64,000 bases of DNA from Streptococcus sp. S1. Its GTDB lineage: Bacteria; Bacillota; Bacilli; Lactobacillales; Streptococcaceae. This document shows positions 4,812 to 31,157 of this stretch, piece after piece. The stretch spans positions 124,001-188,000 of the forward strand of contig NZ_CP139418.1 in assembly GCF_034137685.1 (NCBI RefSeq), given 5' to 3'. Each line of letters opens with the position of its first letter. Position 1 is the first letter of the stretch. The position numbers and the translations under genes are program-made. The notes under the pieces were generated by a model, which saw only the letters and a program-made list of their open reading frames with translations, searched no databases and had not been told where the DNA came from.

Positions 4812-5162
4812 TTAAATCTGACCATAGAAAATATTCTTACGAACTTCGTCACTCATTTTTGACCTAAAATTTTGTCCTTCTCTATAGTCTTTTACATCAC
4901 CTTTTCCTTCAATTCTTGATGCTAAGAATGAATCTGTATCTTCAAATGCTGTAGCTACTTGATCTAAATAGTCGTTAAAACTTACAATTGTCTCTTGAAT
5001 AGTGCCAGCAGTTTCTTTAAATCCATTGAAACATTCTTCTAATTTCGCTTTAGAATCATCTTCAACAATCAGTCCAATCCCAGATCCAAAATTGATAAAT
5101 GCAGCATCAAATTTAGCCTTAACACCTTTTATATTTTCAGGTTTAATATTCTTTTTACTCAT
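4812..5162 (-). CDS. Small helical T7SS-associated protein (effector partner candidate), possibly frameshifted at its 3' end
   Basis: The product has 116 residues; the ATG at 5162 overlaps the end of the upstream gene and follows GGAGGAGGAAA. Apart from a glycine-containing bend (INFGSGIG, about residues 23-30) it looks all-helical. The helix around 45-75 (FKETAGTIQETIVSFNDYL and DQVATAFEDTD) resembles the second helix of WXG100/SACOL2603-type small T7SS proteins. It is the last gene of the LXG-like module and probably helps the 718-aa effector reach the secretion channel. Just past its stop, another frame stays open to 4733 with helix-like sequence (NFTASYTQRIASQIKLLNEL). A one-base indel near 4830 may therefore have shortened a protein that was about 140 residues long. 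Confidence 0.7.
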   Translation of the reverse strand: MSKKNIKPENIKGVKAKFDAAFINFGSGIGLIVEDDSKAKLEECFNGFKETAGTIQETIVSFNDYLDQVATAFEDTDSFLASRIEGKGDVKDYREGQNFRSKMSDEVRKNIFYGQI

Positions 5163-6120: not shown

Positions 6121-6132
6121 TATTATTTTCTC

Positions 6133-8289: not shown

Positions 8290-8292
8290 AAA

Positions 8293-8652
8293 TTACCTCC
8301 TACTTTTCTTCCTATCCATTTTTTCATATTCTTTTCGAGCAATTGCATCTGTAAGTTGTGTATCTAATGATCTCCTCACTGCGTCCAATCTTATAATCTC
8401 TGCATTGATAGCATCAATTGTAGCTTGTTTATATGTTTTATCAAGATCCTCTCTTCCGTCAACGATAACCTTACTTTCCTGAAGTCTTTGTTCGTCATAT
8501 TTTGTTCCAAACACATGCAACTTTTCATAGCCTTCCATTACATCATCTACGTTAAGATCCACACCTTGAACTTTAGTTAGTGCACTTCTCAAAGCTTGAA
8601 CCTTTTGATCAACCTGTGCTATCTGGCTTTTGAGATTACTTGCTTCACTCAT
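8293..8652 (-). CDS. Small helical T7SS partner protein (DUF5082-like)
   Basis: The ATG at 8652 has AAAGGAAAG seven bases upstream and gives 119 residues; an upstream TTG overlapping essC is less likely. The protein is predicted all helix with a coiled-coil character (residues 3-35 and 65-115) and a basic C-terminus ending RKKSRR. Proteins of this size and make-up (DUF5082/Lap1 type) precede LXG effectors in Firmicutes and bind their LXG domain to form the secreted complex. It starts 17 bases after essC and ends three bases before the effector gene. Family assignment is by length, helix pattern and position only. Confidence 0.7.
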   Translation of the reverse strand: MSEASNLKSQIAQVDQKVQALRSALTKVQGVDLNVDDVMEGYEKLHVFGTKYDEQRLQESKVIVDGREDLDKTYKQATIDAINAEIIRLDAVRRSLDTQLTDAIARKEYEKMDRKKSRR

Positions 8653-8668
8653 TTTCACTTTCCTTTCT

Positions 8669-11600
8669 TTAGTCAATAAATACTTTTATAGTTTGAGCTA
8701 TACCATCTACAACAAAATAATTCACTTGTTTTGGTAACACTGGCTCTCTTAAAGTTTTATTTAAAATATTGATAAGTTGTTGATCATTTTGTCTCACTGC
8801 TAAAATAGCCTGTTTATAATTTCTAATTGCTTTTGATGCTATATCAATCTTACGCACTAGAGCTGGTGTAGCTAATACTGCGGTTAGGAAACCAACCTGA
8901 TGGCCTTTTTCAAAAAGTTTAGTAAGAATTCTAATGTCCTCATCATTTAACAAATCAACAATTTCAGATAAGTTATACACAATAAAAGTTGTTGTGTAAT
9001 TTGTCTCATTTTCCGCAAATCGATCATCCATTTTAACCGAAATAGTTTGAATCATTTCATGTAATTTCTCTTTATCTGAAATTAGTGTTACAGAAGAATC
9101 AATATTATTTATTTGATGATATTCTGGTGCGAGTATAATTGTCTTTTTACCAAGTTTTACACTCATCGAAGCAAGATGTTTTGTAATTTGTGACATTTGT
9201 TCTTCTTTTTCAAGAATATAAGCCAAATGACCTCGTTTTACATTCCATCCCATTGCCTTCGCAGTTTCCATGTCTAACCCAACAGGAATTTCACCTTCCT
9301 CCAGCAAAGTTGCTACATCCTCACGTCCATAGAAGGCTGCTTCTGTCAACTCATCTGGCACCATTGGAATGCCTGCTGGGGTGTGGCCTGTCCACATCTC
9401 TTTGAGGCTTTGGACTTGGTCGCGGAGGTTGTTGATGATTTGAATATCATTATCTCCAGCGACTGGTAGGGCGAACTGGACAACATCGACTTCGTCACGT
9501 TTCATGAGTGCCCGTCCCTTGATGTCTTCCATCGTAGCTGCTAGTGGGGTTGCTCCCACGATACCGCGGACTTCAGAGATATCATTTTGTGGCAAGGTCA
9601 GCTGGTGCTTGAAGTTTGAATAGAGCTGAGCCCGTAGGTTGTTCTGACGGCTAGCTGTGATGATCAAGTGCACACCAATGCTGAGACCTTCACGAGAGAT
9701 CCGCATGAAGAGCTTGAAGAGGTCTGTTTCATAAGGCTCGTCCTTCATAGACTCATAGCTATCCATGAGGATGACCATGGTTGGCTCTTGCTTACCGGTC
9801 ACTTCACGGTAGAGAGCGATGGTGCCAACACCATGCTCAGAGAGAAGTTTCTTGCGGCGATCCAACTCGCGGTTGATGATCCGGATGAATTTCTGGATTT
9901 TCTCTGTCTGATCGAGTAGCAAGCTATCGGCCACATGTGGCAATTGAGTCAAGGGTGCCAGACCATTGGTTCCGAAATCCAGCAGGTACATGGTCAGATT
10001 TTCTGGACTCTGCTTGCGAGCTAGATCCATTGCGGCTGTCTGTAGGAAAGTGGTCTTTCCTGTACCTGGACTTCCGTAAAGGAGGATATTTCCATCTTTT
10101 GACAGATCGATGGCGACAGCTTCTTGCTTTTGCGCTTGCGGGATATCGGCGACCCCGATCAGGACGCTTGGAGCTGTCCGTTTTTGCCAAGCCTCGATCG
10201 GTACGACTTTGTCCAACTCATCCAGCGTGATCCGCTCTTTGAGCGGTGGCAACCATGGTTGGGCCACAGCTGCGATGCCTTCTTGTTGGTGCAAGTGATT
10301 GATCTCTTGTACGATCACATCTAGCTCTGTTGGCACTTCCTTGATTTCTTCTGCCATATCCAGACCAGAGAGGTCTTGGTTGAGGACTTCGTATTGGCCC
10401 AGTTCATTGATCAAGTAGATGGTATGGTCTTCGATCCCTAGCTGATCCTTCTCAGGCTGGTAGTCTGCTCCTGACCAAGCGGTTTGGAAAAGTTCATAGA
10501 CTTCGTTATTCCCGACTTGGAGGTAGGCCCGACCGGTCTGGGTGATCTCAGCCGCATCTGCTGTCCGCAGCATCTCCATCGAGTCGCCACGGTCTGCCAC
10601 CTTGAGGGCTAGCTTGAAGCGGGAGTTGGACCAGATCTGGTCATCCACGACCCCAGAAGGTTTTTGCGTTGCAAGGATCAAGTGCACCCCGAGGGAACGC
10701 CCGACACGCGCGATAGAGACCAATTCCTTGATGAAGTCTGGTTGGTTGACCTTGAGTTCGGCGAACTCATCACTGATCAAGAAGAGGTGAGGTAGCGGTT
10801 CTGTCGCTTCACCGAGTTTAAATTTCTTTTGGTATTGGTTGATATGGTTAACCCCATATTGACCAAAGAGCCGCTCCCGACGATGGATCTCCGCATTGAT
10901 AGAGGCCAAGGCCCGCATGGACTGGGCACCATCCAAGTTGGTAATGGTTCCAAGCAAGTGAGGCAGATCCTTGAAGAGGTTGGCCATTCCCCCACCCTTG
11001 TAGTCGATGAGGAGGAAAGCCACATCATGTGGGTGGAAGTTGACGGCAAGGCTCAGGATATAGGACTGAATGGTTTCAGACTTACCAGAACCAGTTGTAC
11101 CTGCGATCAAACCATGTGGCCCATGAGCTTTTTCATGGAGATTGAGGTAGACCAAATCGTCCTTCCCGCGCAGACCAATCGGCACTGCCAAACTTTGGTA
11201 AGGAGCATGGCTCTCCCAACGACTCAAGACCTTAAGATCATTGAAGGTTTCCGCTTGATACATTTCAAGGAAGGTCACCGAGTCCGGAATTGAGCTCTTG
11301 AGCTGTTGGATATGTTTCAGTGGGGCTAGGCCACGCGAGATGGCTTCCTTGTCATAACCTTCAGGGAAGTGATCCAATTGGAAGTCGAGCTCCCGAAGAA
11401 CCCCTTCTTGCAAGAGCAATTGCCCCTGGTTGCGGTCCTTGATGGAGATAACGGTTTGGATATTTTCAGAAAGAGATGAGAGTACGTCTGCCACATAGAT
11501 AATGGAGCATCCTAGCTCTGTCGGATCCTCACGGAAGAACTCCATAATGACATGGTCCAAAATCAAGGTTTCATCGGTGATGAGCACCACATAGTGAGGG

Positions 11601-13084
11601 TGGAAGATCTTGGTATCATTGGCTTTTTCTTCCTCTTTTTGCGCCTTGCGGAGCTTGAGGATTTGGTTGAGACTGTTCAAGACCTGATCGCGTGTCCGCT
11701 GATTGTAGACGAAGCTACGGACATTCATATCTTGTAGGGTCGCATGAGGCAACCAGCGCATCCAATCCCAGCTTTCTTTTTCCTCTTCTGGAATGATCGG
11801 AATAATGGTCAGATCATGGTAAGAGTGAAAGACAGCCAATTGGGCAACCAGGATTTGCAACTGCTCTAGCACGATAGGACGAGGGCCAACATACCCTACA
11901 GGTCCCCGATTGAGGCTGGCTACAATCGGAAGATTGTCGATCTTTTGATGAGCTTGGAACAGAGCATAGCCTTCTTCTTCCAAGGCATCTTTCTTCCCAC
12001 TGCGCTCTTCCTGACCATATTTGAGCTCATAGCTGGTTGGAACCTTGCCCAAGCCCAAACGATAGGCCAAAAAGTCAAAATGAAGGGGTGTTTTTTCGTA
12101 GATCCGCGAGTCATAGCGTTTGACCATCTTGGTCAAGTCCTCGATCGCTGGGAAATGGTAAAACATGCCTTCTCGCTGCTTCCGAGATAGCTGTTCCAAG
12201 TCCTTGGCCTTGTCTTTGAGATAGAGATGGTAGAGCTCCACGCGCTCTTTCTTGTCTTCTTTGTATTTTTTACGATTCTTGAAGAATCCTTGGACCGAAA
12301 AGATCACACTGACCACAGACATGGATACTGTCGCGATGATATAGAGCCCCCGCGGTTGGAAAATGGTGATCAAGAGAGTCACCCCAACCATGATGAGGGG
12401 TGGCATGATTAACTTCAAGAGTTCATCTGATGGCTTTTGAGGCTCCGCTCCCGGAGGATTGATCAAGATCTTGTCTTCCGAACTCCGGTAGATGATCCGC
12501 GGAGACCGGTGGTACTCGGGATAGTCCTTGTAGAAGTCGTAACGCGAATGCAAGCGTGGCACCAGATAAGGACTTACTTCGACAGCCCCTTCCACGCCAA
12601 ATTCTTCTGGATAGAGCTTAAAGGTCACATCTCCAATAGCCAGCTCATCCCCAAAGGCCAGTGGAAAAGTCGCTTCACTAACGAGTTTGTGGTTATGGTA
12701 GAGTTTTCCGGATAAGAGCTGACAAGTCCAAGTCTGATCTTTTTTCACAAGGAGAAAGCGTACTGGATAGTGCAAGCGCACATCCGCACCCTTTTCATCT
12801 GCTACGAGGATTTCTTCCTTGTCGAGCAGTTCATAGGTATGGACTTCCCCTGTCGCTAAGTAGCAGACCACATCCCCAAGAATCTTGCTATTTTCGAGCA
12901 CACCCTTGTCTTCACCATACTGGTAGAAGATTTCTCCTTGACTCCATTGGAAATGAAGGGGATTTTCTTGTAAAGCCAAGGTCAACTGAGCTGTTTCTTG
13001 ATTCGATACGGTGGCTGTTTTTCCCTCTTCTAGCGCTAGCTCATAGCGAAAACCTCTTTTATAGAGTATGATACGTTTTTTCAT
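8669..13084 (-). CDS. essC: Type VIIb secretion ATPase EssC
   Basis: EssC is the 1471-residue motor of the secretion system, close to the usual ~1480. Two FHA-type domains fill about residues 1-190 and two membrane spans lie at 224-243 and 247-268. The first FtsK/SpoIIIE domain has Walker A GTTGSGKS (662-669) and Walker B LFLISDEF (767-774). The second has Walker A GSPGTGKT (1004-1011) and VILMDSYE (1104-1111). A third, degenerate ATPase-like domain follows (1240-1471) without a clear P-loop. The start at 13084 has AAGGAGTAG upstream. From about codon 1275 (base ~9260) the DNA turns visibly AT-richer, like the cargo genes behind it, which fits the known variable EssC C-terminus that sets cargo choice. 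A broken duplicate lies at 3916-4410. Confidence 0.97.
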   Translation of the reverse strand: MKKRIILYKRGFRYELALEEGKTATVSNQETAQLTLALQENPLHFQWSQGEIFYQYGEDKGVLENSKILGDVVCYLATGEVHTYELLDKEEILVADEKGADVRLHYPVRFLLVKKDQTWTCQLLSGKLYHNHKLVSEATFPLAFGDELAIGDVTFKLYPEEFGVEGAVEVSPYLVPRLHSRYDFYKDYPEYHRSPRIIYRSSEDKILINPPGAEPQKPSDELLKLIMPPLIMVGVTLLITIFQPRGLYIIATVSMSVVSVIFSVQGFFKNRKKYKEDKKERVELYHLYLKDKAKDLEQLSRKQREGMFYHFPAIEDLTKMVKRYDSRIYEKTPLHFDFLAYRLGLGKVPTSYELKYGQEERSGKKDALEEEGYALFQAHQKIDNLPIVASLNRGPVGYVGPRPIVLEQLQILVAQLAVFHSYHDLTIIPIIPEEEKESWDWMRWLPHATLQDMNVRSFVYNQRTRDQVLNSLNQILKLRKAQKEEEKANDTKIFHPHYVVLITDETLILDHVIMEFFREDPTELGCSIIYVADVLSSLSENIQTVISIKDRNQGQLLLQEGVLRELDFQLDHFPEGYDKEAISRGLAPLKHIQQLKSSIPDSVTFLEMYQAETFNDLKVLSRWESHAPYQSLAVPIGLRGKDDLVYLNLHEKAHGPHGLIAGTTGSGKSETIQSYILSLAVNFHPHDVAFLLIDYKGGGMANLFKDLPHLLGTITNLDGAQSMRALASINAEIHRRERLFGQYGVNHINQYQKKFKLGEATEPLPHLFLISDEFAELKVNQPDFIKELVSIARVGRSLGVHLILATQKPSGVVDDQIWSNSRFKLALKVADRGDSMEMLRTADAAEITQTGRAYLQVGNNEVYELFQTAWSGADYQPEKDQLGIEDHTIYLINELGQYEVLNQDLSGLDMAEEIKEVPTELDVIVQEINHLHQQEGIAAVAQPWLPPLKERITLDELDKVVPIEAWQKRTAPSVLIGVADIPQAQKQEAVAIDLSKDGNILLYGSPGTGKTTFLQTAAMDLARKQSPENLTMYLLDFGTNGLAPLTQLPHVADSLLLDQTEKIQKFIRIINRELDRRKKLLSEHGVGTIALYREVTGKQEPTMVILMDSYESMKDEPYETDLFKLFMRISREGLSIGVHLIITASRQNNLRAQLYSNFKHQLTLPQNDISEVRGIVGATPLAATMEDIKGRALMKRDEVDVVQFALPVAGDNDIQIINNLRDQVQSLKEMWTGHTPAGIPMVPDELTEAAFYGREDVATLLEEGEIPVGLDMETAKAMGWNVKRGHLAYILEKEEQMSQITKHLASMSVKLGKKTIILAPEYHQINNIDSSVTLISDKEKLHEMIQTISVKMDDRFAENETNYTTTFIVYNLSEIVDLLNDEDIRILTKLFEKGHQVGFLTAVLATPALVRKIDIASKAIRNYKQAILAVRQNDQQLINILNKTLREPVLPKQVNYFVVDGIAQTIKVFID

Positions 13085-13087
13085 AGA

Positions 13088-14377
13088 CTACTCCTTGTGT
13101 TCGCTAGACTCTGTTGAGCTTGCAGCTGTAGAAGACGAGCTTTCTGTTGAGGAGCCTTTTGTAGACGAAGCCGTTGTTGAGTTGCTGGTGGATTCTTTGG
13201 TTTCATCTATCTCTGCTTCCAAGAGTTTAGAGCGAGCATCCCAGTATTTTTTGTATTCGCCCTCGAGCTCAGAAAGTTTCTTCTCGCGCTGTTCACCAGA
13301 GAGTTTTTCGCTATCACGCGTCGCCTTGATTTCTTTACGAAGGGCATAGATGATCAAGTCTGAATCGTCGATCCGCTTGGCTGTATCCAGCGCTTGGGTA
13401 AAGTCATGACGGCCGATATAGACCCAGTAGTGGAGATAGAGGCTATCTGACTTGAGCGTGACGTTGTTAAGGATGACCTTCTTTTGGTCCTCTGAGAAAT
13501 TCAAGCCTTGCAAATAAGACGTCGCCAACTCATATTTCTGTGTCATTGGAAGACTACTTGGAGCCACTCCCTCCAATTCATCGATCACACCGGTATAGTC
13601 TACCTTGAGATAGGCTGTATCCGCTTGAAGCAACTTTTCTTTAAAGGGTGCTTGGAAAAAGACCAAATAGATCAAAGGCAAGAGGAGGAAGGCCACTACA
13701 GTTGAAAGCCACACTGTTGCCAACTTAAAGATTCGGTGTTGACGGCTTGAAACCAAGGTTAAGGTCTTTTCTTCCTCTTCCTTGCGTTCCTGGTAGGCTT
13801 TCTCTAAGAGAGCTTTCATCTCTTCTAAGCTAGTAGCATCACGGATTTCTACCAAGAAATCTGGTAGATCTTCTAATTCGAGTGTACCTTGATAGAGCTC
13901 CATGAAATCCCAGTCCCCAAAAAGAGTGACAGCATAGCACTTGGCCTGACGCAAGAATTCAACCTGATCCCACTTGCGTGGCACCATCATTCCCGGAACC
14001 CCGCGATAAGCGATCTTGACTTGCGCATCCTTGGTCACAAACAAATTGATAGGATGCAACATAAAGGTCACCGGAAGCTCCAAGGCTGGCGCCAAATCCA
14101 AGACATTAATGGCTAGACGCAGACGGTCTGAAACCGGTAATGCCTGGATTTCTTCAGCACTCAAGCCTAGCGCATCTGTCTGATAGGTCAGATGAATCTG
14201 GTCTTGATCAGCTGTCATGCTCTGCTCTAAAAACAAGGGATGATGGAGATCCAAAATCCATAAATTGCGTAAATCCTGGCTATCCACTTCTGAACGCTTG
14301 AGGTCCAATCGCCAGCTCGTTTCTTCTTTTTCAAAGCGGAAGACTTGTTCTTCCAGTGTAAATTGTTCTTCTTTCAC
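13088..14377 (-). CDS. essB: Type VIIb secretion membrane protein EssB
   Basis: The most likely start is the GTG at 14377, with GAGGAG just upstream inside the end of esaB; this gives 429 residues. The soluble N-terminal part (to about 215) has the pseudokinase-like fold of EssB/YukC. One membrane span follows at about 218-242, then an extracytoplasmic helical domain, and a low-complexity tail rich in S, T and E from about 395. EssB contacts EssC and EsaA in the channel. It is three bases from essC. The Ser/Thr-rich tail is longer than I would expect but unlikely to affect function. Confidence 0.95.
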   Translation of the reverse strand: MKEEQFTLEEQVFRFEKEETSWRLDLKRSEVDSQDLRNLWILDLHHPLFLEQSMTADQDQIHLTYQTDALGLSAEEIQALPVSDRLRLAINVLDLAPALELPVTFMLHPINLFVTKDAQVKIAYRGVPGMMVPRKWDQVEFLRQAKCYAVTLFGDWDFMELYQGTLELEDLPDFLVEIRDATSLEEMKALLEKAYQERKEEEEKTLTLVSSRQHRIFKLATVWLSTVVAFLLLPLIYLVFFQAPFKEKLLQADTAYLKVDYTGVIDELEGVAPSSLPMTQKYELATSYLQGLNFSEDQKKVILNNVTLKSDSLYLHYWVYIGRHDFTQALDTAKRIDDSDLIIYALRKEIKATRDSEKLSGEQREKKLSELEGEYKKYWDARSKLLEAEIDETKESTSNSTTASSTKGSSTESSSSTAASSTESSEHKE

Positions 14378-14378
14378 C

Positions 14379-14621
14379 TTACCACTCCTCAATCTCGATC
14401 AGATCACCACTTGTGATCGGATACTCTTGTACTACCTTGCCTTCATCTAGCAAGATGCCCTTATTTACCACGCGCAACTGATACTTACTTCTAGGCTCCA
14501 TGGTAGACCCAAAGATCTGATCCAATTCCCGAATCAAGCGTCGCACCTCCATCCGCGTTGGGATTCGGAGGTCATGGCTTGCACCATTCATACGGAAGGT
14601 GACATTGATATGTTGGTCCAT
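14379..14621 (-). CDS. esaB: Ubiquitin-like T7SS protein EsaB
   Basis: The product has 80 residues, matching the EsaB/YukD family: a small beta-grasp protein in the cytoplasm that regulates or assembles the system. The pattern INVTFRMNGASHDLRIP, then a helix, then KGILLDEGKVVQEYPI and a final SGDLIEIEEW is typical. The ATG directly follows the essA stop, and the end carries the ribosome binding site for essB, so translation is probably coupled. Confidence 0.93.
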   Translation of the reverse strand: MDQHINVTFRMNGASHDLRIPTRMEVRRLIRELDQIFGSTMEPRSKYQLRVVNKGILLDEGKVVQEYPITSGDLIEIEEW

Positions 14622-15077
14622 TTAGGCCTCTTTTCTATAAATTCGATAGGAAATATAGCCAGCAATCCCAAAGAGAAGGGCACTCCAAGCCAGCATTTGC
14701 AAGGCTGGAATAAAATCCGACAAACTAGCCGAATTGTCCTCTACATTGGACTCAAATTTAGATAATTTTTGATTTTCAGGCTGGAACAGGTCCGCTTCAG
14801 GCTCTGTTTTTTTCTTTCCCTTTATAGCAGAAAACAACTGGCCGTCTGAATCGGTCAATTGTTTCTCTTGCTTGCGTTTTTCATCTATTAATTTTTTCTG
14901 ATCCTTCTCATTGAAAAGAGACTCAGTGGCATCCAATTGGCCACCAAGTGTCTTTTCCTGTTCTGTCTCAAGACGTGAGTTGTTGACCTGAAGACGATTA
15001 TCAATAAAATCATCTGCAGAAACAACAGCTACTGGCAAGAGACTAAAGACAAAGAGAAGATACATCATTTTTTTCAT
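14622..15077 (-). CDS. essA: Type VIIb secretion protein EssA
   Basis: The product has 151 residues. An N-terminal signal sequence (1-21, ending VVSADD) is followed by a charged, helical extracytoplasmic part (25-120) and a C-terminal membrane span (about 126-145, MLAWSALLFGIAGYISY). The ATG at 15077 overlaps the esaA TGA as ATGA, showing translational coupling. Length, topology and position between esaA and esaB identify it as EssA, a small integral part of the channel complex. Confidence 0.92.
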   Translation of the reverse strand: MKKMMYLLFVFSLLPVAVVSADDFIDNRLQVNNSRLETEQEKTLGGQLDATESLFNEKDQKKLIDEKRKQEKQLTDSDGQLFSAIKGKKKTEPEADLFQPENQKLSKFESNVEDNSASLSDFIPALQMLAWSALLFGIAGYISYRIYRKEA

Positions 15078-18000
15078 ATGCTTGATTCAATTTCCTTTGT
15101 TTGAGTAAACTTCTTTGGGACGAAGATATTGGCAACCGCCAAAAGACCGAAGAGAACCAACAATCCGAAGAAGACGACGATACCAGCTGTTTGTCCATCA
15201 AAGTAACCCGCAAACTGTCCTTCCAAAATAGAAAGGAGGTTGACATTTTTCACCAGTGCTGGAAGGCCTGACAAGGTTGCGGTTGTTCCGATCGCGCTAG
15301 ATAGGTAGACATAACTGATCAACATGAAGAAGGCCAGTCCCATTCCAATCACACGGAAGTGTTTCAAAAGAAGGTATTGTAGTTGTACCAAGACAAAGCT
15401 TGCTAGAACTGCTAAAAATACCCATGAAGGTATATATTCACGACCGACAGAGAGTTGAATACTTGAAATCATTCCGATCACCAGTCCAAGGATGAGAGAA
15501 AGTCCCACAAGGACACCGACAGATAAGAGATCTGATTCTTGCAAGCGATCCAATTTGAAACGATCCTTAACCTTGCGAATGATTGGTTGAGTCGCAAAGA
15601 GATAAGCTGTAAAGAGGCTCAAGACTTCCAACATAAAGATCCAAATAAATGGACGGTAGACGTTGATGGTCGCTTTCACAGAAGAAGATTTCTCTGCAAC
15701 TGGATTTGACAAGAAGTCAAGCAAGACTTCATTCGGTACCCCGTTTTCATAGGCATTGTTGAAGACCTTACGGAAGGCTTCGACAAAGTTCCCATTTTCA
15801 GACAATTCCTTGTCGAATTCACCCATCAAACTTTCCGCATTGCTAGACAATTTCTCTGTATTGCCTTGGGCTTTTTCCAATTCTTTGTTCAATTGGCTAA
15901 AGATTTCATTGGTAGAGTTAGCAGCTTCTACATTGCTACGAGATGAGTTCTTGACACTTTCTGTCGAACTCAATAATGAGGTGTATTCAGAACCAAGGGC
16001 TGACAAATCTGCATCGGTCTTAGTTTGAGCCTGTGTCACTGTTTCCTGTGTTTTTGAGATCTCTTCTAAACGTTTTTGAAGATCTGCATACTGCGTCAAT
16101 TGATCATTGATATTTTGGGTTAGATCTTTGTTAGTATTTTCAATTGCTTGAAGATTGGCCTGCAATTGTGGTCCCAAGTCTTGCAACTGTTGGAGGGTAC
16201 CATCTAACTGGGCTTTCACACCCTTCGTTGCATCCCCAGATTCATCCGTTTCAATACTCTTACGGTAGTCCTTTATGTTACTTGAAACAGCAGCCTTCAC
16301 GATATCGACCAAAGCGTTTGTCAAATCCATATCTTCAATCGGATCATAGAGCGAATGACGATCTCCCTTGTCATCTTTTGGATAGTAGGCATCGATCAAT
16401 GCTCCTGCGCGTTGATAATCCAAGGCGATTTCACTAGCTTTCGATGCATAGTTAGCGACAGCTGTTTTCAAATCTTCTGCAGATACAGTCACACTGGTTG
16501 AAGAAACTCCATTCACAAGAACTTCAACATCAATCGCACTTGGCATAGCTCCTCCATCTTCAACAAGGTGAATTTGAATTTGTTTGCCATCTTTCAGTTC
16601 GACTTCCTGTTCACCACTGCCTGCATAAGTCTGTCCATCATAGGTCCAGGTATCCACCTTGACTCCTGCAGGGACATGAATACTAACTTTCTGTTTTCCA
16701 GATTTAGCATTAAGGACATCCGCAACTGCCGTTGATTTGGCATCCACTTCTTGCGCCAATTTTTTTAATGCATCAGCATTCCCTTTTGGATGTGCCTTCG
16801 TTCCAGCAAAAGCACTATCAAAATCAATCGCTGCGTTAAGATTCCCATACTTATTCAGATCAAGACTAGCTGGATCTAAAGACGGAAGTTTTTCAATCGC
16901 TTGACGAATGTCATCATCCGCTTTATTACGTGCCTCACTTAGCGTCTTGATACTTGTCTTTCCAAGCAAGGTACGAAGAGTAACTTTTTCTCCTTCTTTT
17001 AGACCATAGTAGTCAAGGATCTTCGCTTTTACAGAAGACTCGATGTTATTTTCGTGCTCATCTAACTTGTCGCGTTCTGCCTTGATCCCTTTTTCGAGGT
17101 CTGCCACACGATCATTCACCTCTTTTGTCAAGCTAGCATAGGTCTTGGTACCTGAAGAATCCCCTGCTGTTTCAGTTGGCTGACTCAATTGTTTGGTAAT
17201 CGCTTCTTGATTTAGTTGTAGATTCTTATACAACTCTTGGGTCTTTTCACTGACAACAGACTGGTTCATGGACATCAGCTGGTTCATGAATTCTTCTTGG
17301 CTGATCTTATCCTCAGAACGTTGTTTTATCAGTAAGTCAAAGTTTTGACCGTACTGACCCTGAGATTGGGTCAATTGATCAAATGCTTGTGTATAAGACT
17401 CAAGGACTGTCTTCAAGGCGTTGTTAGACTCGACAGATGACGTAGACAAGCTATAGAGACTCGGGAAAATATTTTTCGAATCCAAGGCTGAATCCAGCAA
17501 GTTAGTTCGATAAGAACCAATGTTAGTGGATTGAATTTTGTTACTTGTTTCCACATTTTTCTGAGCTGTATAAAGGTTGCTTAGAATGCTGACCATATAC
17601 ATATCAACCAATTGGCTATTCAAGTCTGAAACGATATCTTTAGCGACTTTATTGGCCTCGTTTTCAACCTGAGAATTCCCAGCCGCATTGACTTTATACG
17701 TCACCGTAGTCTTCTCTGCATTAACCGCGTTCACTTCCAAGATCTTCTCTGAGAAGTCACTTGGAATGACGATCATCAACTGATACTTGCCATCTGCAAG
17801 CCCTGACTCAGCGGCTCCACGAGGAACTACAGACCAGTTTTGCGAATTATCCCGTTCGATATTCTTAACATAGCTAGCCCCAAGGTTGTATTCTTTATCA
17901 TTCAGCTTAACCGCTTTATCCTCATTGACAACCGCAATGTTGAGCTTGGTGTTTTCTGTCGTTTGCACGGTCTTGGCTTCGTTTTGCTTTTGGTCCTTTT

Positions 18001-18097
18001 GAACCGTGGTATAAAGACCCACTACGGACCCCATCAAAAGGAGCACAACTGCACTCTGACCAATGTATTTTAACCATTTTATATTTTTAACTTCCAT
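15074..18097 (-). CDS. esaA: Type VIIb secretion protein EsaA
   Basis: The product has 1007 residues and the start at 18097 follows AAGGAAAAGG. One membrane span at about residues 10-29 precedes a very long extracellular part dominated by coiled-coil helices (30-810), and five or so spans follow at 815-1000. This YhgE/Pip-like layout is that of EsaA, whose stalk projects through the cell wall and which served as a phage receptor in relatives (YueB). A small beta-rich insert near residues 485-550 (SIHVPAGVKVDTWTYDGQTY) breaks the helices. Two hairpins lie between it and esxA, so it may be expressed less than esxA. Confidence 0.95.
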   Translation of the reverse strand: MEVKNIKWLKYIGQSAVVLLLMGSVVGLYTTVQKDQKQNEAKTVQTTENTKLNIAVVNEDKAVKLNDKEYNLGASYVKNIERDNSQNWSVVPRGAAESGLADGKYQLMIVIPSDFSEKILEVNAVNAEKTTVTYKVNAAGNSQVENEANKVAKDIVSDLNSQLVDMYMVSILSNLYTAQKNVETSNKIQSTNIGSYRTNLLDSALDSKNIFPSLYSLSTSSVESNNALKTVLESYTQAFDQLTQSQGQYGQNFDLLIKQRSEDKISQEEFMNQLMSMNQSVVSEKTQELYKNLQLNQEAITKQLSQPTETAGDSSGTKTYASLTKEVNDRVADLEKGIKAERDKLDEHENNIESSVKAKILDYYGLKEGEKVTLRTLLGKTSIKTLSEARNKADDDIRQAIEKLPSLDPASLDLNKYGNLNAAIDFDSAFAGTKAHPKGNADALKKLAQEVDAKSTAVADVLNAKSGKQKVSIHVPAGVKVDTWTYDGQTYAGSGEQEVELKDGKQIQIHLVEDGGAMPSAIDVEVLVNGVSSTSVTVSAEDLKTAVANYASKASEIALDYQRAGALIDAYYPKDDKGDRHSLYDPIEDMDLTNALVDIVKAAVSSNIKDYRKSIETDESGDATKGVKAQLDGTLQQLQDLGPQLQANLQAIENTNKDLTQNINDQLTQYADLQKRLEEISKTQETVTQAQTKTDADLSALGSEYTSLLSSTESVKNSSRSNVEAANSTNEIFSQLNKELEKAQGNTEKLSSNAESLMGEFDKELSENGNFVEAFRKVFNNAYENGVPNEVLLDFLSNPVAEKSSSVKATINVYRPFIWIFMLEVLSLFTAYLFATQPIIRKVKDRFKLDRLQESDLLSVGVLVGLSLILGLVIGMISSIQLSVGREYIPSWVFLAVLASFVLVQLQYLLLKHFRVIGMGLAFFMLISYVYLSSAIGTTATLSGLPALVKNVNLLSILEGQFAGYFDGQTAGIVVFFGLLVLFGLLAVANIFVPKKFTQTKEIESSI

Positions 18098-18126
18098 ACC
18101 TTTTCCTTTTTCTAATTCATAGACAC

Positions 18127-18165
18127 AAAATAGGGGTTAGGGATTAAGAATCTAACCCCTATTTT
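18127..18165. terminator. Perfect hairpin between esxA and esaA
   Basis: A perfect 14-bp inverted repeat (18127-18140 with 18152-18165) has an 11-nt loop and short T runs on both sides. It lies 30 bases before esaA, so it may act as a partial terminator or mRNA stabiliser between esxA and the rest of the operon. Confidence 0.7.
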
Positions 18166-18183
18166 CTATATATCAAAAGACAA

Positions 18184-18218
18184 AAGGGTGATCTACCAAC
18201 AAGAAGTAAGATCACCTT
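18184..18218 (-). terminator. Terminator directly after esxA
   Basis: AAGGTGATCT pairs with AGATCACCCTT on the minus strand, followed by TTTTG, just 10 bases after the esxA stop. It is the first of two hairpins before esaA. Confidence 0.65.
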
Positions 18219-18228
18219 CAAGATTATC

Positions 18229-18516
18229 TTAGTGAATTTGTGCAGCGATATCTTGGTCAGTTTGTTCAACGATATCAGCAACTTTGATCAATTGACCGTT
18301 GATATCTTCCAATAATTGAGCAAATTGTTTGATTTTTGGAGACAATTCGTTGAATTGTGCTTCAAAGCTATCAAATGCAGATCCATCCCAGTTTGCATCG
18401 ATGACTTGTTGTTCATGAGTCAAAGTAGTAAGAACACGATCGATGTCTTGAGAACCTTGCGCATAGCGTTGTGCTGATTGACGTAGGTCATCTGGAGTTA
18501 ATTTAATTTGAGTCAT
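18229..18516 (-). CDS. esxA: WXG100 secreted protein EsxA
   Basis: The product has 95 residues and no signal peptide. Two amphipathic helices are joined by the WDG turn (W43-D44-G45), the defining WXG motif, and the tail carries the IVEQTDQDIA segment that fits the YxxxD/E-type export signal region. The ATG at 18516 follows AAAGGAG. EsxA forms a dimer, is secreted by the system and is needed for its activity. It is the first gene of the T7SS locus, with a near-consensus promoter at 18645-18673 and two hairpins behind it, which would give high esxA expression relative to the channel genes. Confidence 0.97.
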   Translation of the reverse strand: MTQIKLTPDDLRQSAQRYAQGSQDIDRVLTTLTHEQQVIDANWDGSAFDSFEAQFNELSPKIKQFAQLLEDINGQLIKVADIVEQTDQDIAAQIH

Positions 18517-25433: not shown

Positions 25434-27563
25434 TTATTCTGCTTGTTTATCAGTATTGTCTTCATTCTTTGTGTCTTTTTCTCTGATCACAAGGACACCA
25501 TCTTCCATGTCAGCTTCCAGGTGTTTAGCATCCAAGTTATCCAAGTGGAAGTCTGTGACTTTGTCACGGATTTGTTGTTCAACTACCCGACGGAGTGGAC
25601 GAACACCCATCACTTCATCATAACCTTCTTCAGTCATATATTCTTTAGCTGCATCGCTCACTGCCAAGTCGATTTCTTTCTTAGAAAGGGTCTTATTGAC
25701 ATCTACCAACATCAAATCAACAATCTTAGAAAGATCTTCCTTGCTCAAGTGTGAGAATTCAATGACAGCGTTGAAACGGTTCAAGAATTCTGGACGGAAG
25801 TAAGGTTTCAAACGATCCATGAGTTCTGGTTTATCCGCATCTTCTGTCAAGTTGGCTTCGTAACCAAAGCCAGCGTTTGAAGTGGCGATAATTACAGTGT
25901 TCTTGAAGTTGACCGTATTCCCTTGACCATCTGTCAAACGACCATCATCCAAAACTTGGAGAAGAAGGGTGATGACTTGAGGATCCGCCTTTTCAATTTC
26001 GTCAAGAAGGACGATTGAGTAAGGGTTACGACGAACACGTTCTGTCAAAGTATTGCTATTGTCATCATAACCAACATAACCAGCTGTTGTACCAATCAAT
26101 TTAGAAACGGCTGTACGGTCGCTATATTCTGACATGTCCAAACGGATGATGGCATCTTTGGTTCCGAACATATCAAGCGCCAATTGTTTAGCTAACTCAG
26201 TTTTACCAACACCAGTAGGACCTACAAAGAGGAAGCTACCGATTGGGCGATTTCCTTCGTCAAAGCCTGCACGATTACGACGGATAGCACGTGACACTGC
26301 TTCAACAGCCTTGTCTTGACCGATAACCTTAGTTTGCAAACGGTGACCCATATCTTTCAAACGTTCGATATCAGTTGCACCCATTTGTGACACTGGAATA
26401 CCCGTCATCCGTTCTACTGATTCAGCCACATCGTTGATTGTTGCAGTTACCTTATGGTCTTCTGTATGGTTTTCAATTTTCTTTTCAAGTTCTTCGATAC
26501 GAACTTTTGCTTTCAAAGCTGCTTCGTAATCTTCTTTAGCCGCAGCTTCTTCTTGTTTGGTTTTTTCTTCTTCAATTTCATGTTCCACAGCATGAACATC
26601 TGTTACCGGATGTTGGGCTGCCAAGTGAGCAGCTGTCACATCGACCAAGTCGATGGCCTTATCAGGCAAGCTACGTTGTGGAATGTATTGAACAGAATAA
26701 TCAACTGCCGCTTTCAAGACTTCATCAGGCAAGACCACATTGTGGTGTTGTTGATACAATTCACGGATTCCTTGGAGGATCTTGAAGGTATCTTCAGCAG
26801 ATGGAGCATTAACCTTGACTTCGTTGAAACGACGTGCAAGAGCTGCATTTTTCAAGATGGTGTTGCGGTATTCATCTTGAGTGGTTGCCCCAATCACGGT
26901 CAATTCCCCACGTGAAAGAGCTGGTTTCAAGATATCCGCAAGACCTTTAGATCCTTGACCATCCCCTGTGCTACCTGCACCAAGGATTTGGTGGATTTCG
27001 TCAAAGAAGAGGATAACATTTCCCATAGCCTTGACTTCTTGGATCAGATTTTGAATATTTTCTTCAAAGCTACCACGGTATTGTGTACCAGCTTCTAGAC
27101 CAGAAATATCAATCGAGATGATTTCTTTGTTCTTGATAGCAGCTGGAACATCCCCGTTCACAATAGCTTGTGCCAAACCTTCTACAACTGCTGTTTTACC
27201 AACACCGGCATCCCCTACAAGGACAGGGTTGTTCTTGGTGCGACGAGACAAGATTTCAGCAGTTTCTTGAATTTCTTTATTACGTCCGATGACCGGATCC
27301 AATTTTCCTTCACGAGCTTCTTCGGTCAAGTTGCGACCAAGTTTTGCAAGGATCCCATCTTGTTTCATTCCTTTACCTTGATGGTGTTGCACTTGATCAC
27401 TCCCTTCATTTGGAAGTTGACCAGTTTGGCGGTAAATAGCGAATTCTTCAGGTGTCACTTCACGACCGTTGATCATGTAGCGACGGCTTTCAGAACGAAA
27501 ACCACCCATATTTCCCATTAGTTGATTGAAAAGATCATCCATATTGTTAAAGTTGTTATTCAT
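25434..27563 (-). CDS. clpL: ATP-dependent chaperone ClpL
   Basis: The product has 709 residues, the ClpL size. The N-terminus is the short N- and M-rich segment typical of ClpL ([16 protein letters not shown]), with no zinc finger. Two AAA+ modules follow, with P-loops GDAGVGKT (117-124) and GPTGVGKT (448-455), separated by a UVR-like coiled coil (about 327-366). ClpL protects and refolds proteins under heat and other stress and has no ClpP-binding partner role that can be seen here. The gene has a near-consensus promoter (27811-27839) and a leader of about 240 bases. I see no clear CtsR box or CIRCE element. Confidence 0.95.
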
Positions 27564-27810: not shown

Positions 27811-27839
27811 ATTATAACGCAGACCAATTTCTTTGTCAA
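27811..27839 (-). promoter_or_regulatory. clpL promoter
   Basis: The minus strand reads TTGACA (27839-27834), 17 bp, TATAAT (27816-27811), a full consensus promoter. The leader is about 240 bases. Confidence 0.8.
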
Positions 27840-27869: not shown

Positions 27870-27897
27870 AAAAAAATCTGGACGTCACTCCAGATTC
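27870..27897 (-). terminator. Terminator of the lipase effector module
   Basis: AATCTGGA/TCCAGATT (27875-27882 with 27889-27896), a 6-nt loop and seven T on the minus strand, 24 bases after the last gene of the module. Confidence 0.8.
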
Positions 27898-27920
27898 CAT
27901 ATTTAAATGGATGTTCTTGG

Positions 27921-28220
27921 CTAGATAGATTTAAATTTCCCAGCTTTTTCTTGAATAGATATCTGTACATTTTTAGCAAATTGACCCACCATGGACTGAT
28001 CCAGTTGCTTTCCAACGACCTGGACGTCTTCTTCGGCTACTGTTGCAATCGCAGTCAAGCCATCATTGTAACGTTTCTCAACTCCTGCCTTGCAGGTCAA
28101 TAAAACGGGCGCATAGACAACCCGGATTAAATCTTTTTCAAGTTTCTTTCGGCTTTCGATGATCCTCATCTTATCTTTCATATCTAAATCAAAGAAATCT
28201 TTGACTGGACTATCACCCAT
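27921..28220 (-). CDS. Small helical T7SS partner candidate (TlaA-like)
   Basis: The product has 99 residues; the ATG at 28220 follows AGAGGAGG. It is predicted mostly helical, with a strongly charged first half (KDKMRIIESRKKLEKDLIR) and a hydrophobic turn with a cysteine (VLLTCKAGVE), and has no signal peptide. It is the last gene of the lipase module. S. aureus TslA has two small helical partners encoded beside it that bind its C-terminal domain; this gene and the one upstream fit that place and size. Sequence similarity to those proteins could not be tested. Confidence 0.6.
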   Translation of the reverse strand: MGDSPVKDFFDLDMKDKMRIIESRKKLEKDLIRVVYAPVLLTCKAGVEKRYNDGLTAIATVAEEDVQVVGKQLDQSMVGQFAKNVQISIQEKAGKFKSI

Positions 28221-28238
28221 ACTTCCTCCTCTTCTATA

Positions 28239-28619
28239 CTATGAAACTTTATCTTGTGCAAACTCCTCTTCCAGTTGGCGTCTATCTTTCCGGTAGGATT
28301 GCCATAAATTCTCTTCCTCGATTTCGATCTGTTTGAAGGCTACTTGTGCAGCTTCTCTAGCTTCGAGATCATACTCTTCTATACAGCGATGGAGGGACTC
28401 CCATCCACAACTGACATCAACCTCCTGCTTTTGTAAAAAGGAAGCTGCCATCGCATACTCTTCTTCCAGCATCTGGGTGAAGAGCTGCTGTTTTCTTTCC
28501 ACTAGGCAACGCTTTTCATCTAGCTCCAAGCGCGCTTTTCGGAACTCTATTTCCAAGTGATCTAGTTTCTTTTCCTTTTTCGAATGAGTAGATGAAATTA
28601 ATAAGCTAGTTGTTCCCAC
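28239..28619 (-). CDS. Small helical T7SS partner candidate (TlaA-like), GTG start
   Basis: The best start is the GTG at 28619, inside the end of the lipase gene, with AGGAG about ten bases upstream; this gives 126 residues. From residue 14 on it is one long charged coiled coil (EKKLDHLEIEFRKARLELDE, then EEEYAMAASFLQKQEV, then a final EEENLWQSYRKDRRQLEEEF). No signal peptide. The overlap with the lipase gene shows co-translation. It probably binds the helical tail of the lipase for export; this is inferred from the S. aureus TslA system. Confidence 0.6.
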   Translation of the reverse strand: MGTTSLLISSTHSKKEKKLDHLEIEFRKARLELDEKRCLVERKQQLFTQMLEEEYAMAASFLQKQEVDVSCGWESLHRCIEEYDLEAREAAQVAFKQIEIEEENLWQSYRKDRRQLEEEFAQDKVS

Positions 28620-30190
28620 TGGTTCATTTCTCCTGCTATTTCTTGATCTTTTGCTTTTAAGAGCTCAATTCCTGCATTCACTTGCTCGCTTAAAGCATGG
28701 AATTCATTCGATAAGGACTGATATGCAGCCAAACGATTGTCGAACCTTTCTCTTACTTCAGTGACAACTGTTTGCCTTGTTGCACCAGCCTGTGCATAGG
28801 CCTCTTCTACTTCCGCAAGATTAAGAATGAAGCCTTTCGGAACGGTCTGTAATACTTTCTCCAAAGTTTCTAAATCTGTATCCAGTTGTGCCTTAGATTT
28901 CTGAGCTTGCTCCAGCCCTTCATCCACTACTCGAATCAGCTCATCAGAAGCCAAACGAGCCTGCAAAGCATCCAGATAGATCCGTTCACTTGAGCTCAGT
29001 CCACCACCTGTTTTTTGCAATTTATCCTTTAGGCGATAGTAAACCTTCATCCGCTCTTCAATGATTTCCTTCCGAGTGATGGCTTCCGTTCCCTTTTCAA
29101 GAACCAAATTCCCATTCTTATCATAGATATAACCATGCATCATGTGCTGCAGGCCCGTATTTTTCAAATTCTTAGTTTTGAGGTGCTTGACAATCCCACT
29201 GGATTCCTTGCTTCCAGAATCCTGATAGCCCAAGCTAACCAAATCTTTATGGTCAATATGGTTGTAGATCTTGTACTTCAGCGAATCTATACGCGCTTTT
29301 TGCTCGGGTGTTAAGATGGAATAGGCATTAGGACCATTGTATAGATGGACAGTCCCAATATGAGAAGCTTCTTCTTCTGTCAAGCAGGCAAGAGCATACT
29401 GAATATCCATAGACCCCAGAGAGTGACCGTATAGGTCGATCTTAGCATTGGGGTATTTTCGGATTACCTCTTTCAAATGAGCTGCAGCATCTTTAAATTG
29501 TGGAGGCGGGAAAGTCCCGGTTAATTCATTGTATTTTTTTAAAAAAGCAGCTCCCATTAAAGTAGGAAATTTAACCTGTTCTTCGGCTGTTCTTTCTGCA
29601 AAAAAGCCGGCTACATCTGATGCTTTTTCCTGTACAAAATTGCTGACAGGATTATCCAGCGCTTTTTGTATGAACCTGCCAACGGGAGTGGCCTCCGGCG
29701 GAAGATTAACAGAAGTAGGAATAATCGCATCTTCAAAAGCTTCTACTGCATTATTAAAACTATCCTTGGCCTTATCTCGCGCATAATTCTTCGCATAATC
29801 TGTTGCATACTCGCTTGCTCCAACAGGGTTCAAAATATTGGAAGCTGCTGGCAGATCTGTCTTTACCCAATCCGTAAATGTATCATGGAGTAATTTTTGT
29901 GTACTTATTTCAGTCTCAGATCCCTTCATCAAAACTGTCACGTCATGAATTTGGGAACGATCTTCATCAGAAGCAGAATAAGGGACTGCTTTTTGTTTTT
30001 CGCCTTGGCCATTGTTAGTAATAACGAAGACCTGCTCTTCATTGCCATTTACACTATCATAGATGTGAGCGACATTGCCAATGTATTCCCCGGTTTTCAA
30101 TCGTACATCTTGATTATAGCTTTCTATCTCATACTCTTTATACGCAATTTCTTTCTTCATTTCATCTGAAAATGATTTATCAAAAGCCAT
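28598..30190 (-). CDS. Class-3 lipase with C-terminal helical domain (TslA-like reverse LXG T7SS effector)
   Basis: The product has 530 residues; the ATG at 30190 shares one base with the upstream stop and follows AGAGG. There is no signal peptide. The alpha/beta-hydrolase motif GHSLG sits at 255-259 (nucleophile Ser257). Asp313 or Asp316 in NHIDHKD and His349 or His352 in LQHMMHG could complete the triad. Residues 365-530 are long helices (two near 430-460 and 470-525), like an LXG/WXG targeting region but at the C-terminus. That reversed order, small helical partners downstream and lipoproteins upstream is the arrangement of the S. aureus T7SS lipase toxin TslA. Phospholipid targets in competing bacteria are likely but inferred. 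Confidence 0.8.
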   Translation of the reverse strand: MAFDKSFSDEMKKEIAYKEYEIESYNQDVRLKTGEYIGNVAHIYDSVNGNEEQVFVITNNGQGEKQKAVPYSASDEDRSQIHDVTVLMKGSETEISTQKLLHDTFTDWVKTDLPAASNILNPVGASEYATDYAKNYARDKAKDSFNNAVEAFEDAIIPTSVNLPPEATPVGRFIQKALDNPVSNFVQEKASDVAGFFAERTAEEQVKFPTLMGAAFLKKYNELTGTFPPPQFKDAAAHLKEVIRKYPNAKIDLYGHSLGSMDIQYALACLTEEEASHIGTVHLYNGPNAYSILTPEQKARIDSLKYKIYNHIDHKDLVSLGYQDSGSKESSGIVKHLKTKNLKNTGLQHMMHGYIYDKNGNLVLEKGTEAITRKEIIEERMKVYYRLKDKLQKTGGGLSSSERIYLDALQARLASDELIRVVDEGLEQAQKSKAQLDTDLETLEKVLQTVPKGFILNLAEVEEAYAQAGATRQTVVTEVRERFDNRLAAYQSLSNEFHALSEQVNAGIELLKAKDQEIAGEMNQWEQLAY

Positions 30191-30573
30191 TATTTACCTC
30201 TTAATTCATCTGATAATTCTCCTGAGATGACATAACCATTTTGTTCAAATTTGCCATCTGATTCCTCTGTTAAAGTTGTTGTAATTGTTAGGTTATTATC
30301 ATCATTGATTATAACTTTTATTATTAATCCTCCCATTGGATTATACTTCAATGAATTTTCATTTATCTTGTAACTTTTTATAACTCCTTTATCTGTAAAT
30401 GCGTTTGGATCTTCTTGCCTTAATAAATTTTCAATCACATCTTTAGCTTTCTTACTCTCTGCAATTTGAATCATTTCTTGTTTTTTGGCAGATTGTCCAT
30501 TAAAAAAGCTACAGCCTCCTAAGCTCAGGCTAAATACTACCATTATCAACACAATAAATTTACTTTTTTTCAT
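30190..30573 (-). CDS. Lipoprotein, TilA/DUF4467-like immunity candidate, copy 2
   Basis: The product has 127 residues; the lipobox LGGC places the lipidated cysteine at 21. The mature part fits a small cystatin-like fold: a helix rich in K and E (EMIQIAESKKAKDVIENLL), then GVIKSYKINENSLKYNPMGG and strands IKVIINDDNNLTITTTL. It is a paralogue of the protein at 30759-31157, with shared MIQIAES, SY and YNPMGG positions. It touches the lipase gene by one base. In S. aureus, DUF4467-type lipoproteins (TilA) neutralise TslA from outside the membrane, so this is a strong immunity candidate. Confidence 0.75.
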   Translation of the reverse strand: MKKSKFIVLIMVVFSLSLGGCSFFNGQSAKKQEMIQIAESKKAKDVIENLLRQEDPNAFTDKGVIKSYKINENSLKYNPMGGLIIKVIINDDNNLTITTTLTEESDGKFEQNGYVISGELSDELRGK

Positions 30574-30592
30574 CTTCTTCCCATTCTTTCTT

Positions 30593-30634
30593 CAGGTTTC
30601 TTAGAATTTATTATACAAAATTCTAAGAAACCTG
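30593..30634. repeat. Perfect 17-bp inverted repeat between the two immunity lipoprotein genes
   Basis: 30593-30609 pairs perfectly with 30618-30634 around an 8-nt loop. The minus strand of the loop reads GTATAATA, containing a consensus -10 hexamer. There is no T run after it, so it looks more like an operator or mRNA structure than a terminator. The -35 position is weak. Confidence 0.65.
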
Positions 30635-30758
30635 AAATGTTACTTTTGTTAAAAAATGTTGCCAAATCGTTACAAGCACTAGCTATTAATGTAACATATT
30701 GGTTTTGATCCAGAAATGTTTCTATTTTCCTATATTAGGGGTATTTACCTGAATGAGT

Positions 30759-31157
30759 TTATTTCCCAGTCTCTTCTGCTTTACTTAACAGATCATCTAA
30801 TTTTGCTGAAATACCATAACTACCTGCTTCGAACTGTCCTGAATCTTCCATTTGAACAGTCGTATCGATCGTTAACTTTTTATCGCCATTGATAACGAGA
30901 TAGACATTCATCCCCCCCATTGGATTGTATTCCAATTCACCTTTTATCAGGGTATAGGAGTGAATGACCCCTTCTGAAGTGAAAGCTTTAGGATCGATAC
31001 TAATTAAAAAGTGTTTTATCGCTCGCTCCATTTTCGTGCTTTCTGCAATCTGAATCATTTTCCTTCTCTCAGCAGATTGATCCGTAAAAAGGCCACAACC
31101 TCCTAGAAACAAAGTCAGTAAAAATAGTAGCATTAATCCTTGTTTTTTATCAGTCAT
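30759..31157 (-). CDS. Lipoprotein, TilA/DUF4467-like immunity candidate, copy 1
   Basis: The product has 132 residues; the lipobox is LGGC (cysteine 21). It resembles the neighbour at 30190-30573 over its whole length: MIQIAEST in the first helix, GVIHSY, YNPMGGMNVYLVINGDKKLT in the strands, then a tail ending SKAEETGK. It is the first gene of the lipase module and is separated from copy 2 by about 185 bases that hold the inverted repeat at 30593-30634. Two immunity paralogues with one effector suggest protection against variant lipases from other strains. Confidence 0.75.
   Translation of the reverse strand: MTDKKQGLMLLFLLTLFLGGCGLFTDQSAERRKMIQIAESTKMERAIKHFLISIDPKAFTSEGVIHSYTLIKGELEYNPMGGMNVYLVINGDKKLTIDTTVQMEDSGQFEAGSYGISAKLDDLLSKAEETGK

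Follow-up and report, generated by a model that had tools for sequence, protein, structure and literature searches.

A predicted reverse-LXG lipase module with DUF1310 lipoproteins in Streptococcus sp. S1

The subject of this analysis is a group of five genes in Streptococcus sp. S1, located at positions 27921 to 31157 of a 64,000-nucleotide stretch of contig NZ_CP139418.1 (positions 124,001 to 188,000), which we call the window. The genes code for two lipoproteins, a 530-residue lipase-like protein and two small proteins. A preliminary description had taken them for a streptococcal module of the TslA-like reverse-LXG lipase type, and this assignment is supported by the lipase fold, by a helical tail with a GxL motif, by the relatedness of tail and partners to those of loci with a TilA-type DUF576 lipoprotein (DUF576-type loci) and by the co-occurrence with EssC of the type VIIb secretion system (T7SSb).

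The cassette and its products

All five open reading frames (ORFs) of the preliminary description are present in the ORF list and all are on the minus strand (Table 1). The gene of lipoprotein 2 overlaps the lipase gene by one base, the lipase gene overlaps small gene 1 by 22 bases, and 18 bases lie between small gene 1 and small gene 2. The wording that all genes are overlapping or closely spaced is correct from lipoprotein 2 to small gene 2 and slightly too strong for the lipoprotein genes, because these are separated by 185 bases, which contain a 19-bp inverted repeat. The single terminator that had been assumed at the end of the module was found as a 10-bp hairpin followed by U (−11.8 kcal/mol, z −3.4, with 1 of 200 shuffles equally stable); it was not among the outputs of the pattern scan of the window.

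The reading of the 530-residue protein as a lipase without signal peptide was borne out as well: there is no hydrophobic N-terminus, and a GHSLG elbow with the nucleophile Ser257 occupies residues 255–259. Ser257, Asp316 and His349 are invariant in our alignments A2, A3 and A4 (15, 33 and 10 rows), and a class-3 lipase fold with conserved elbow Ser, Asp and His is predicted for the N-terminal domain. The Pfam families Lipase_3, Cutinase and Mbeg1-like match the protein only below their cut-offs. A helical insertion of 108 residues (119–226) is largely missing in relatives of about 410 residues, and within it residues 152–185 were modelled with a predicted local distance difference test score (pLDDT) below 50. 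The closest named relatives, 77–89% identical, come from nine loci of Streptococcus parasanguinis and other Streptococcus, which would place the host most likely in the same group.

For a wider comparison, ORFs of 320 residues or more were collected from 197 loci, and the 162 obtained gave 139 distinct toxins. No ORF of this length was present at 37 loci, at some because of a broken or cut gene; broken genes were left out and not read through. A serine elbow of the form [GA][HYF]Sx[GSA] is present in 137 of the 139 N-terminal domains, the exceptions being L045 and L144, and the strict GxSxG in 114, with 13.3 expected by shuffling. We also looked for warheads other than hydrolases by running a profile of the tail alone against 197 Streptococcus genomes, and fetched 15 further places from among the matches listed. 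Two of these are tail-only, and the other 13 have an N-terminal domain with a GHS, GFS or GYS elbow. As all 13 show the serine elbow, we found no tail joined to an unrelated type of warhead among these matches. Many of the 37 loci lacking a full toxin ORF, for instance in Lactobacillus, Limosilactobacillus and Gemella, gave matches to the lipase part alone. At L037 (2521–4908, genome G181) a 795-residue protein with the lipase domain first and no recognised reverse tail stands behind two lipoproteins, a few kb from essC; possibly this is another architecture of a T7SS lipase.

The long C-terminal helices claimed earlier are present in the structure model at residues 372–530. This tail has GxL (396–398, within GGGLSSS at 395–401) near its start and ends in ...DQEIAGEMNQWEQLAY. 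In 80 of 86 representatives (clusters at 80% identity) the tail profile lies at most 25 residues from the C-terminus, and the tail can be aligned with the toxin tails at DUF576-type loci. A Pfam search of the toxin gave no match to the LXG family, the helical domain being C-terminal and not N-terminal. In a comparison of the tail profile with 3814 ORFs, WXG100 proteins ranked next behind the toxins and pieces of them, with the tail aligned to their C-terminal helix in a consistent C-terminal register. We regard this as suggestive of a relation between the tail and WXG100/EsxA, not as proof of it. Against the relation speak the weakness of the match (E 7e-5 to 1e-2 by profile, 57% in hhalign), the rank of the EsxA structures in the PDB list (E 0.026–0.086, with designed bundles and a single natural protein ahead of them) and the ease with which coiled coils match.

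Of the 97 streptococcal toxins, 59 have the motif [DE]xxx[WFY] within their last 20 residues (21.4 expected by shuffling) and 41 have ExxxW there (6.8 expected); outside Streptococcus, 3 of the 42 toxins have [DE]xxx[WFY]. The sequences counted are related, and the split by genus was made by locus. The motif near the streptococcal tail end is a candidate for a mirror image of the YxxxD/E signal. A tail-only protein of 197 residues without warhead, followed by two partner-like small genes, is encoded elsewhere in the same genome (L198, 2482–3075, at about 0.357 Mb) and may be a remnant or else a delivery module that lacks a toxin; among the matches listed, tail matches in frames of 193–199 residues were also seen in genomes G030, G038, G086, G094, G169 and G170.

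Profiles of the two small partners were built from the partners at DUF1310 loci. Applied to the five DUF576-type loci with identified partner ORFs (L044, L046, L047, L048 and L050), the profile of partner 1 recovered the partner at four and that of partner 2 at all five. L048, whose upstream ORF gave no signal, we presume from its genus to be of the DUF576 type. Under the distance rule used, no partner ORF was assigned at L045, L049 or L051.

Both lipoproteins carry a lipobox cysteine (LGGC) and score above the gathering score of PF07006, DUF1310 (112.2 and 87.0 bits vs 30.1). The YNPMGG motif that had been described for both is indeed common to them, and they are 48% identical over 104 residues. 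The model of lipoprotein 2 (pLDDT 86.5) predicts a helix-plus-sheet fold; structural neighbours of the DUF1310 model are weak and cystatin-like or NTF2-like. DUF1310 was detected in 49 of the 197 Streptococcus genomes, and a strong reverse-lipase match was found in 43 of these 49 as well as in 23 of the 148 genomes without DUF1310. Some loci have many copies, such as that of Streptococcus sanguinis SK355 (L129), where eight match stretches correspond to about seven DUF1310 genes.

Table 1. Positions in the window of the module features and of the T7SSb core
Feature	Position	Strand	Evidence and remarks
Lipoprotein 1, DUF1310, 132 residues	30759..31157	-	ORF list; PF07006 E 1.5e-24; second or orphan immunity candidate
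Inverted repeat, 19 bp, 8-nt loop, between the two lipoprotein genes	30591..30636	.	repeat scan
Lipoprotein 2, DUF1310, 127 residues	30190..30573	-	PF07006 E 2.3e-32; predicted cognate immunity protein
Reverse-LXG lipase toxin candidate, 530 residues	28598..30190	-	ORF list, alignments, structure model, lipase fold
Toxin residues 1-35, hypervariable, covarying with lipoprotein 2	30086..30190	-	strain comparison
Toxin residues 119-226, helical insertion	29513..29836	-	alignment, strain comparison, model
Lipase core, residues 227-371, with Ser257 (29420-29422), Asp316, His349	29078..29512	-	alignments, fold
Reverse-LXG tail, residues 372-530, GxL at 396-398 (28997-29005)	28601..29077	-	model, profiles
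Small partner 1, 126 residues, GTG start, TlaA1 position	28239..28619	-	partner profile
Small partner 2, 99 residues, TlaA2 position	27921..28220	-	partner profile
Intrinsic terminator hairpin	27873..27898	-	folding energy vs shuffles
T7SSb core: EsxA, EsaA, EssA, EsaB, EssB, EssC, presumed exporter	8669..18516	-	NCBIfam

Conserved layout and co-occurrence with EssC

The layout was examined in 81 non-redundant loci, the representatives of the 86 clusters with at least 350 bases upstream and at least 700 bases downstream, where membrane proteins and lipoproteins were called by a simple rule of our own. A membrane-anchored or lipoprotein ORF is found directly upstream of the toxin in 72 loci and two small ORFs directly downstream in 67; the full layout of membrane gene, toxin and two small genes is present in 61 of the 81. 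For 112 control ORFs of at least 220 residues from the same loci, which are mechanical ORFs and not verified genes, the corresponding numbers are 18, 10 and 3. By profile the upstream protein belongs to DUF1310 at 39 loci and to DUF576 at five and is another membrane protein at 28, with none found at nine; Pfam confirmed DUF576 in the four DUF576-type proteins submitted.

Some cassettes were encountered in other settings. A Streptococcus suis phage record (L214, phi-SsuFJNP8_rum, MN270261.1) has a similar four-gene cassette with 22.8% identity beside terminase genes; mobile elements may thus contribute to the spread of the module. The Enterococcus sp. PLM3 conjugative plasmid AP025691.1 (L213) carries a tandem-type lipoprotein, a reverse toxin and two small genes. 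Outside Bacillota, reverse-lipase relatives were seen in Scardovia, Alloscardovia and Bifidobacterium commune (L158, L162, L171–L174, L176, L186 and L196).

The T7SSb core of the window is supported by NCBIfam, in the case of EsaB/YukD only below the curated cut-off. EsxA is 9.4 kb from the module, in line with the 10 kb given before, and the genes in between are, as we take from their sequences, proS, rseP, cdsA, uppS, yajC and clpE. With this distance and other genes between, the module is near the T7SS locus, not in it. Reverse tails were detected with the tail profile in 62 of the 197 Streptococcus genomes, among the matches listed. EssC was above its curated cut-off in 53 of these 62 genomes and in 13 of the 135 others (Fisher 4e-26, a value that overstates independence because the genomes are related; relatedness inflates all our co-occurrence and proximity values). 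Among the 41 tails of 19 EssC-carrying single-contig genomes, 7 are at most 25 kb from EssC, where 1.0 would be expected. On a Limosilactobacillus fermentum plasmid a relative of the toxin stands behind essC with one gene between.

Several points weigh against a TslA-like, T7SS-linked module. Besides the relatedness just mentioned, Foldseek with the lipase model, taken alone, returned nothing under E 0.001 (best 0.017, cutinases). The partner profiles fell short of covering every locus, recovering 43 of 62 and 38 of 59 at loci with another or no assigned immunity family. The module toxin is 17–20% identical overall to the toxins of DUF576-type loci, the comparison being with these and not with S. 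aureus TslA itself. Nine of the 62 tail genomes have no EssC over the cut-off, some of them having EssC fragments. These nine genomes, and the position of the module outside the T7SS locus, would also fit a housekeeping lipase, cytoplasmic or Sec-independent, that has nothing to do with its neighbours and whose tail would be a dimerisation or membrane-binding domain. Against this reading stand the frequency of the four-part layout over controls, the strong EssC co-occurrence, the relative one gene behind essC on the Limosilactobacillus plasmid and the relatedness of the partners to those of DUF576-type loci; we consider such a lipase very unlikely.

A second, very different reverse lipase is present in the same genome (L002, 883–2649, at about 1.337 Mb). 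It has 588 residues and an AHSLGT elbow, with a membrane protein encoded upstream and small genes downstream; these partners were missed by the partner profiles. Relatives of L002 lie about 7 kb from essC in genomes G032, G060 and G116.

Variation at the 5′ end of the toxin gene

After artefacts at stretch ends had been dropped, fragments of the own toxin were found upstream on the same strand for 56 of the 139 toxins (36 of 86 clusters, 101 matching stretches), and none on the opposite strand across all 139. The sole downstream case, at L110, lies between two toxins and is upstream of the second. Most fragments correspond to the N-terminus: 89 of the 101 start within the first 15 toxin residues and 100 end before residue 230, only the fragment at L108, a match over the whole toxin, reaching the tail. 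A membrane-protein ORF is present on both sides of 77 of the 101 fragments.

We then compared the same site in nine S. parasanguinis-group genomes, expressing identity relative to the window. The flanking genes are 98–99% identical (clpE measured in eight), the tail 94–98%, the lipase core 95–99%, residues 36–118 82–89% and the partners 87–98%. Lipoprotein 1 is 91–93% identical in eight loci and 55% in one. Lipoprotein 2 falls into two groups with 98–99% or 57–68% identity, and toxin residues 1–35 vary in step with it (97% or 26–34%; Spearman 0.81 over 45 non-independent pairs). The helical insertion has two allelic types as well (81–92% or 36%).

Exchange of a block at the 5′ end could explain the variation of lipoprotein 2 and of residues 1–35; linkage alone could explain it too, because the two are adjacent. 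Further points speak against exchange. Lipoprotein 2 follows the insertion type weakly (Spearman 0.41, again 45 non-independent pairs), and in L124 and L127 it is 98–99% identical but the insertion is only 36% identical. In the window no toxin fragment is present upstream, where the best tblastn match has E 6.4. In LXG loci orphan cassettes are found downstream. Since in these loci the partners come first and the immunity gene last (PMC10730906, in the part used here), the upstream fragments would form the mirror image of this arrangement.

Comparison with known systems and interpretation

For S. aureus the text of PMC10730906 that we could draw on gives the order tilA–tslA–tlaA1–tlaA2, with TilA as a DUF576 protein. 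Two statements of the preliminary description must be corrected with it. The gene order, said to differ from that of TslA, is the same in the window. An immunity protein of the DUF4467 family has to be rejected, as the paper assigns TilA to DUF576 and nowhere uses the word DUF4467, and the window lipoproteins match PF07006. The module is thus like TilA–TslA–TlaA1–TlaA2 as described there in its order, in the N-terminal lipase of the same fold, the helical tail with GxL, the two downstream partners and the upstream lipoprotein, and like TslA (Tsl1 family) it has a polymorphic toxin N-terminal region. It differs in its immunity family, DUF1310 being present in place of the DUF576 lipoprotein, in the 108-residue insertion and in the frequent [DE]xxx[WFY] near the C-terminus of streptococcal tails. 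By sequence, toxin and partners are assigned to the TslA class and the immunity family is a different one.

The four-gene cassette is also reported for Listeria grayi and Enterococcus (legend of Fig. 1b in PMC10730906). The locus of L. grayi DSM 20601 (L154), which from the species we infer to be the published cassette, has the same order with DUF1310 upstream (E 4e-39). DUF576 may therefore define TilA rather than the toxin family. In Listeria monocytogenes, locus L004 shows this order again, with three DUF1310 genes followed by the toxin gene and two small genes. These cassettes differ from the module in having about 30–34% identity and no helical insertion. Reverse lipases with the lipase first and the helical domain last are described for Neobacillus and Paenibacillus T7SSe/T7SSg loci in the portion of PMC11217815 available to us; these belong to other T7SS types and are likened to the module by description, not by sequence. 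With LXG loci of the Streptococcus intermedius TelA–C type the module shares a helical targeting domain, small partners, a neighbouring immunity gene and a polymorphic toxin, yet in LXG toxins the LXG domain is N-terminal, and partners and immunity gene stand at the opposite ends. Among the literature matches listed, no title or abstract opening named a streptococcal reverse lipase (subscription journals and preprints lying outside this scope).

Taken together we consider it very probable that these five genes form a streptococcal module of the reverse-LXG lipase type, coding for an antibacterial phospholipase exported by the T7SSb, with DUF1310 lipoproteins as immunity proteins. The helical tail, bound to the two small proteins, would direct the lipase to the T7SSb; once exported, the enzyme would attack the phospholipids of neighbouring bacteria, and the DUF1310 lipoproteins, anchored outside the membrane, would likely protect the producer. 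We also propose that the family diversifies through recombination at the 5′ end of the toxin gene, where an immunity gene would be swapped together with a toxin N-terminus and displaced N-termini would stay behind upstream, as the mirror image of LXG loci.

Lipases can act on host membranes as well. If the T7SS exported the lipase to act on the animal host, and the lipoproteins served for example as export chaperones or in surface lipid binding, this would also be compatible with the fact that our literature search, in the parts of papers covered, found no published function of DUF1310. Variable tandem copies of membrane-anchored proteins directly before the toxin, the use of this position by several membrane families unrelated to each other and hypervariability between strains are, however, typical of toxin-immunity pairs, and TslA is antibacterial and dispensable in a mouse abscess model (PMC10730906, part used here). 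We give a host-directed lipase very little credence.

Starting from an antibacterial reverse-LXG lipase, a wider reading can be proposed, which we hold tentatively and at somewhat less than an even chance: a streptococcal polymorphic toxin system that mirrors the LXG systems. Its 3′ part, tail and partners, would be fixed, and recombination at the toxin 5′ end would exchange blocks of immunity gene plus toxin N-terminus, displaced N-termini remaining upstream among the immunity genes as an archive. The warheads would be alpha/beta-hydrolases only, the antidotes DUF1310 and several membrane families, and a C-terminal D/ExxxW-type signal would mirror YxxxD/E.

If these readings are true, the reverse-LXG class extends beyond Staphylococcus, Enterococcus and Listeria (with Neobacillus and Paenibacillus) to a group of human oral commensals and, within our Streptococcus sample, to about one genome in three, and DUF1310, a family of unknown function, gains a testable role in lipase immunity. 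With a natural mirror image of the LXG system, one could study how N-terminal and C-terminal targeting domains are recognised by the same secretion machine, and how toxins diversify when their polymorphic warhead is N-terminal.

Concerning the surroundings, the neighbours of the module, as recognised from sequence, are presumably a clpE-like gene (25434–27563) on one side and an ABC transporter operon (from 31265 on) on the other. Four genes behind essC (4812–8676; 127, 718, 321 and 116 residues) resemble a forward effector cassette, and their proteins gave no Pfam or NCBIfam match to the LXG family. Behind the module terminator and before the clpE-like gene there is a sigma-70 consensus promoter with 12 of 12 positions (27811–27839, minus strand).

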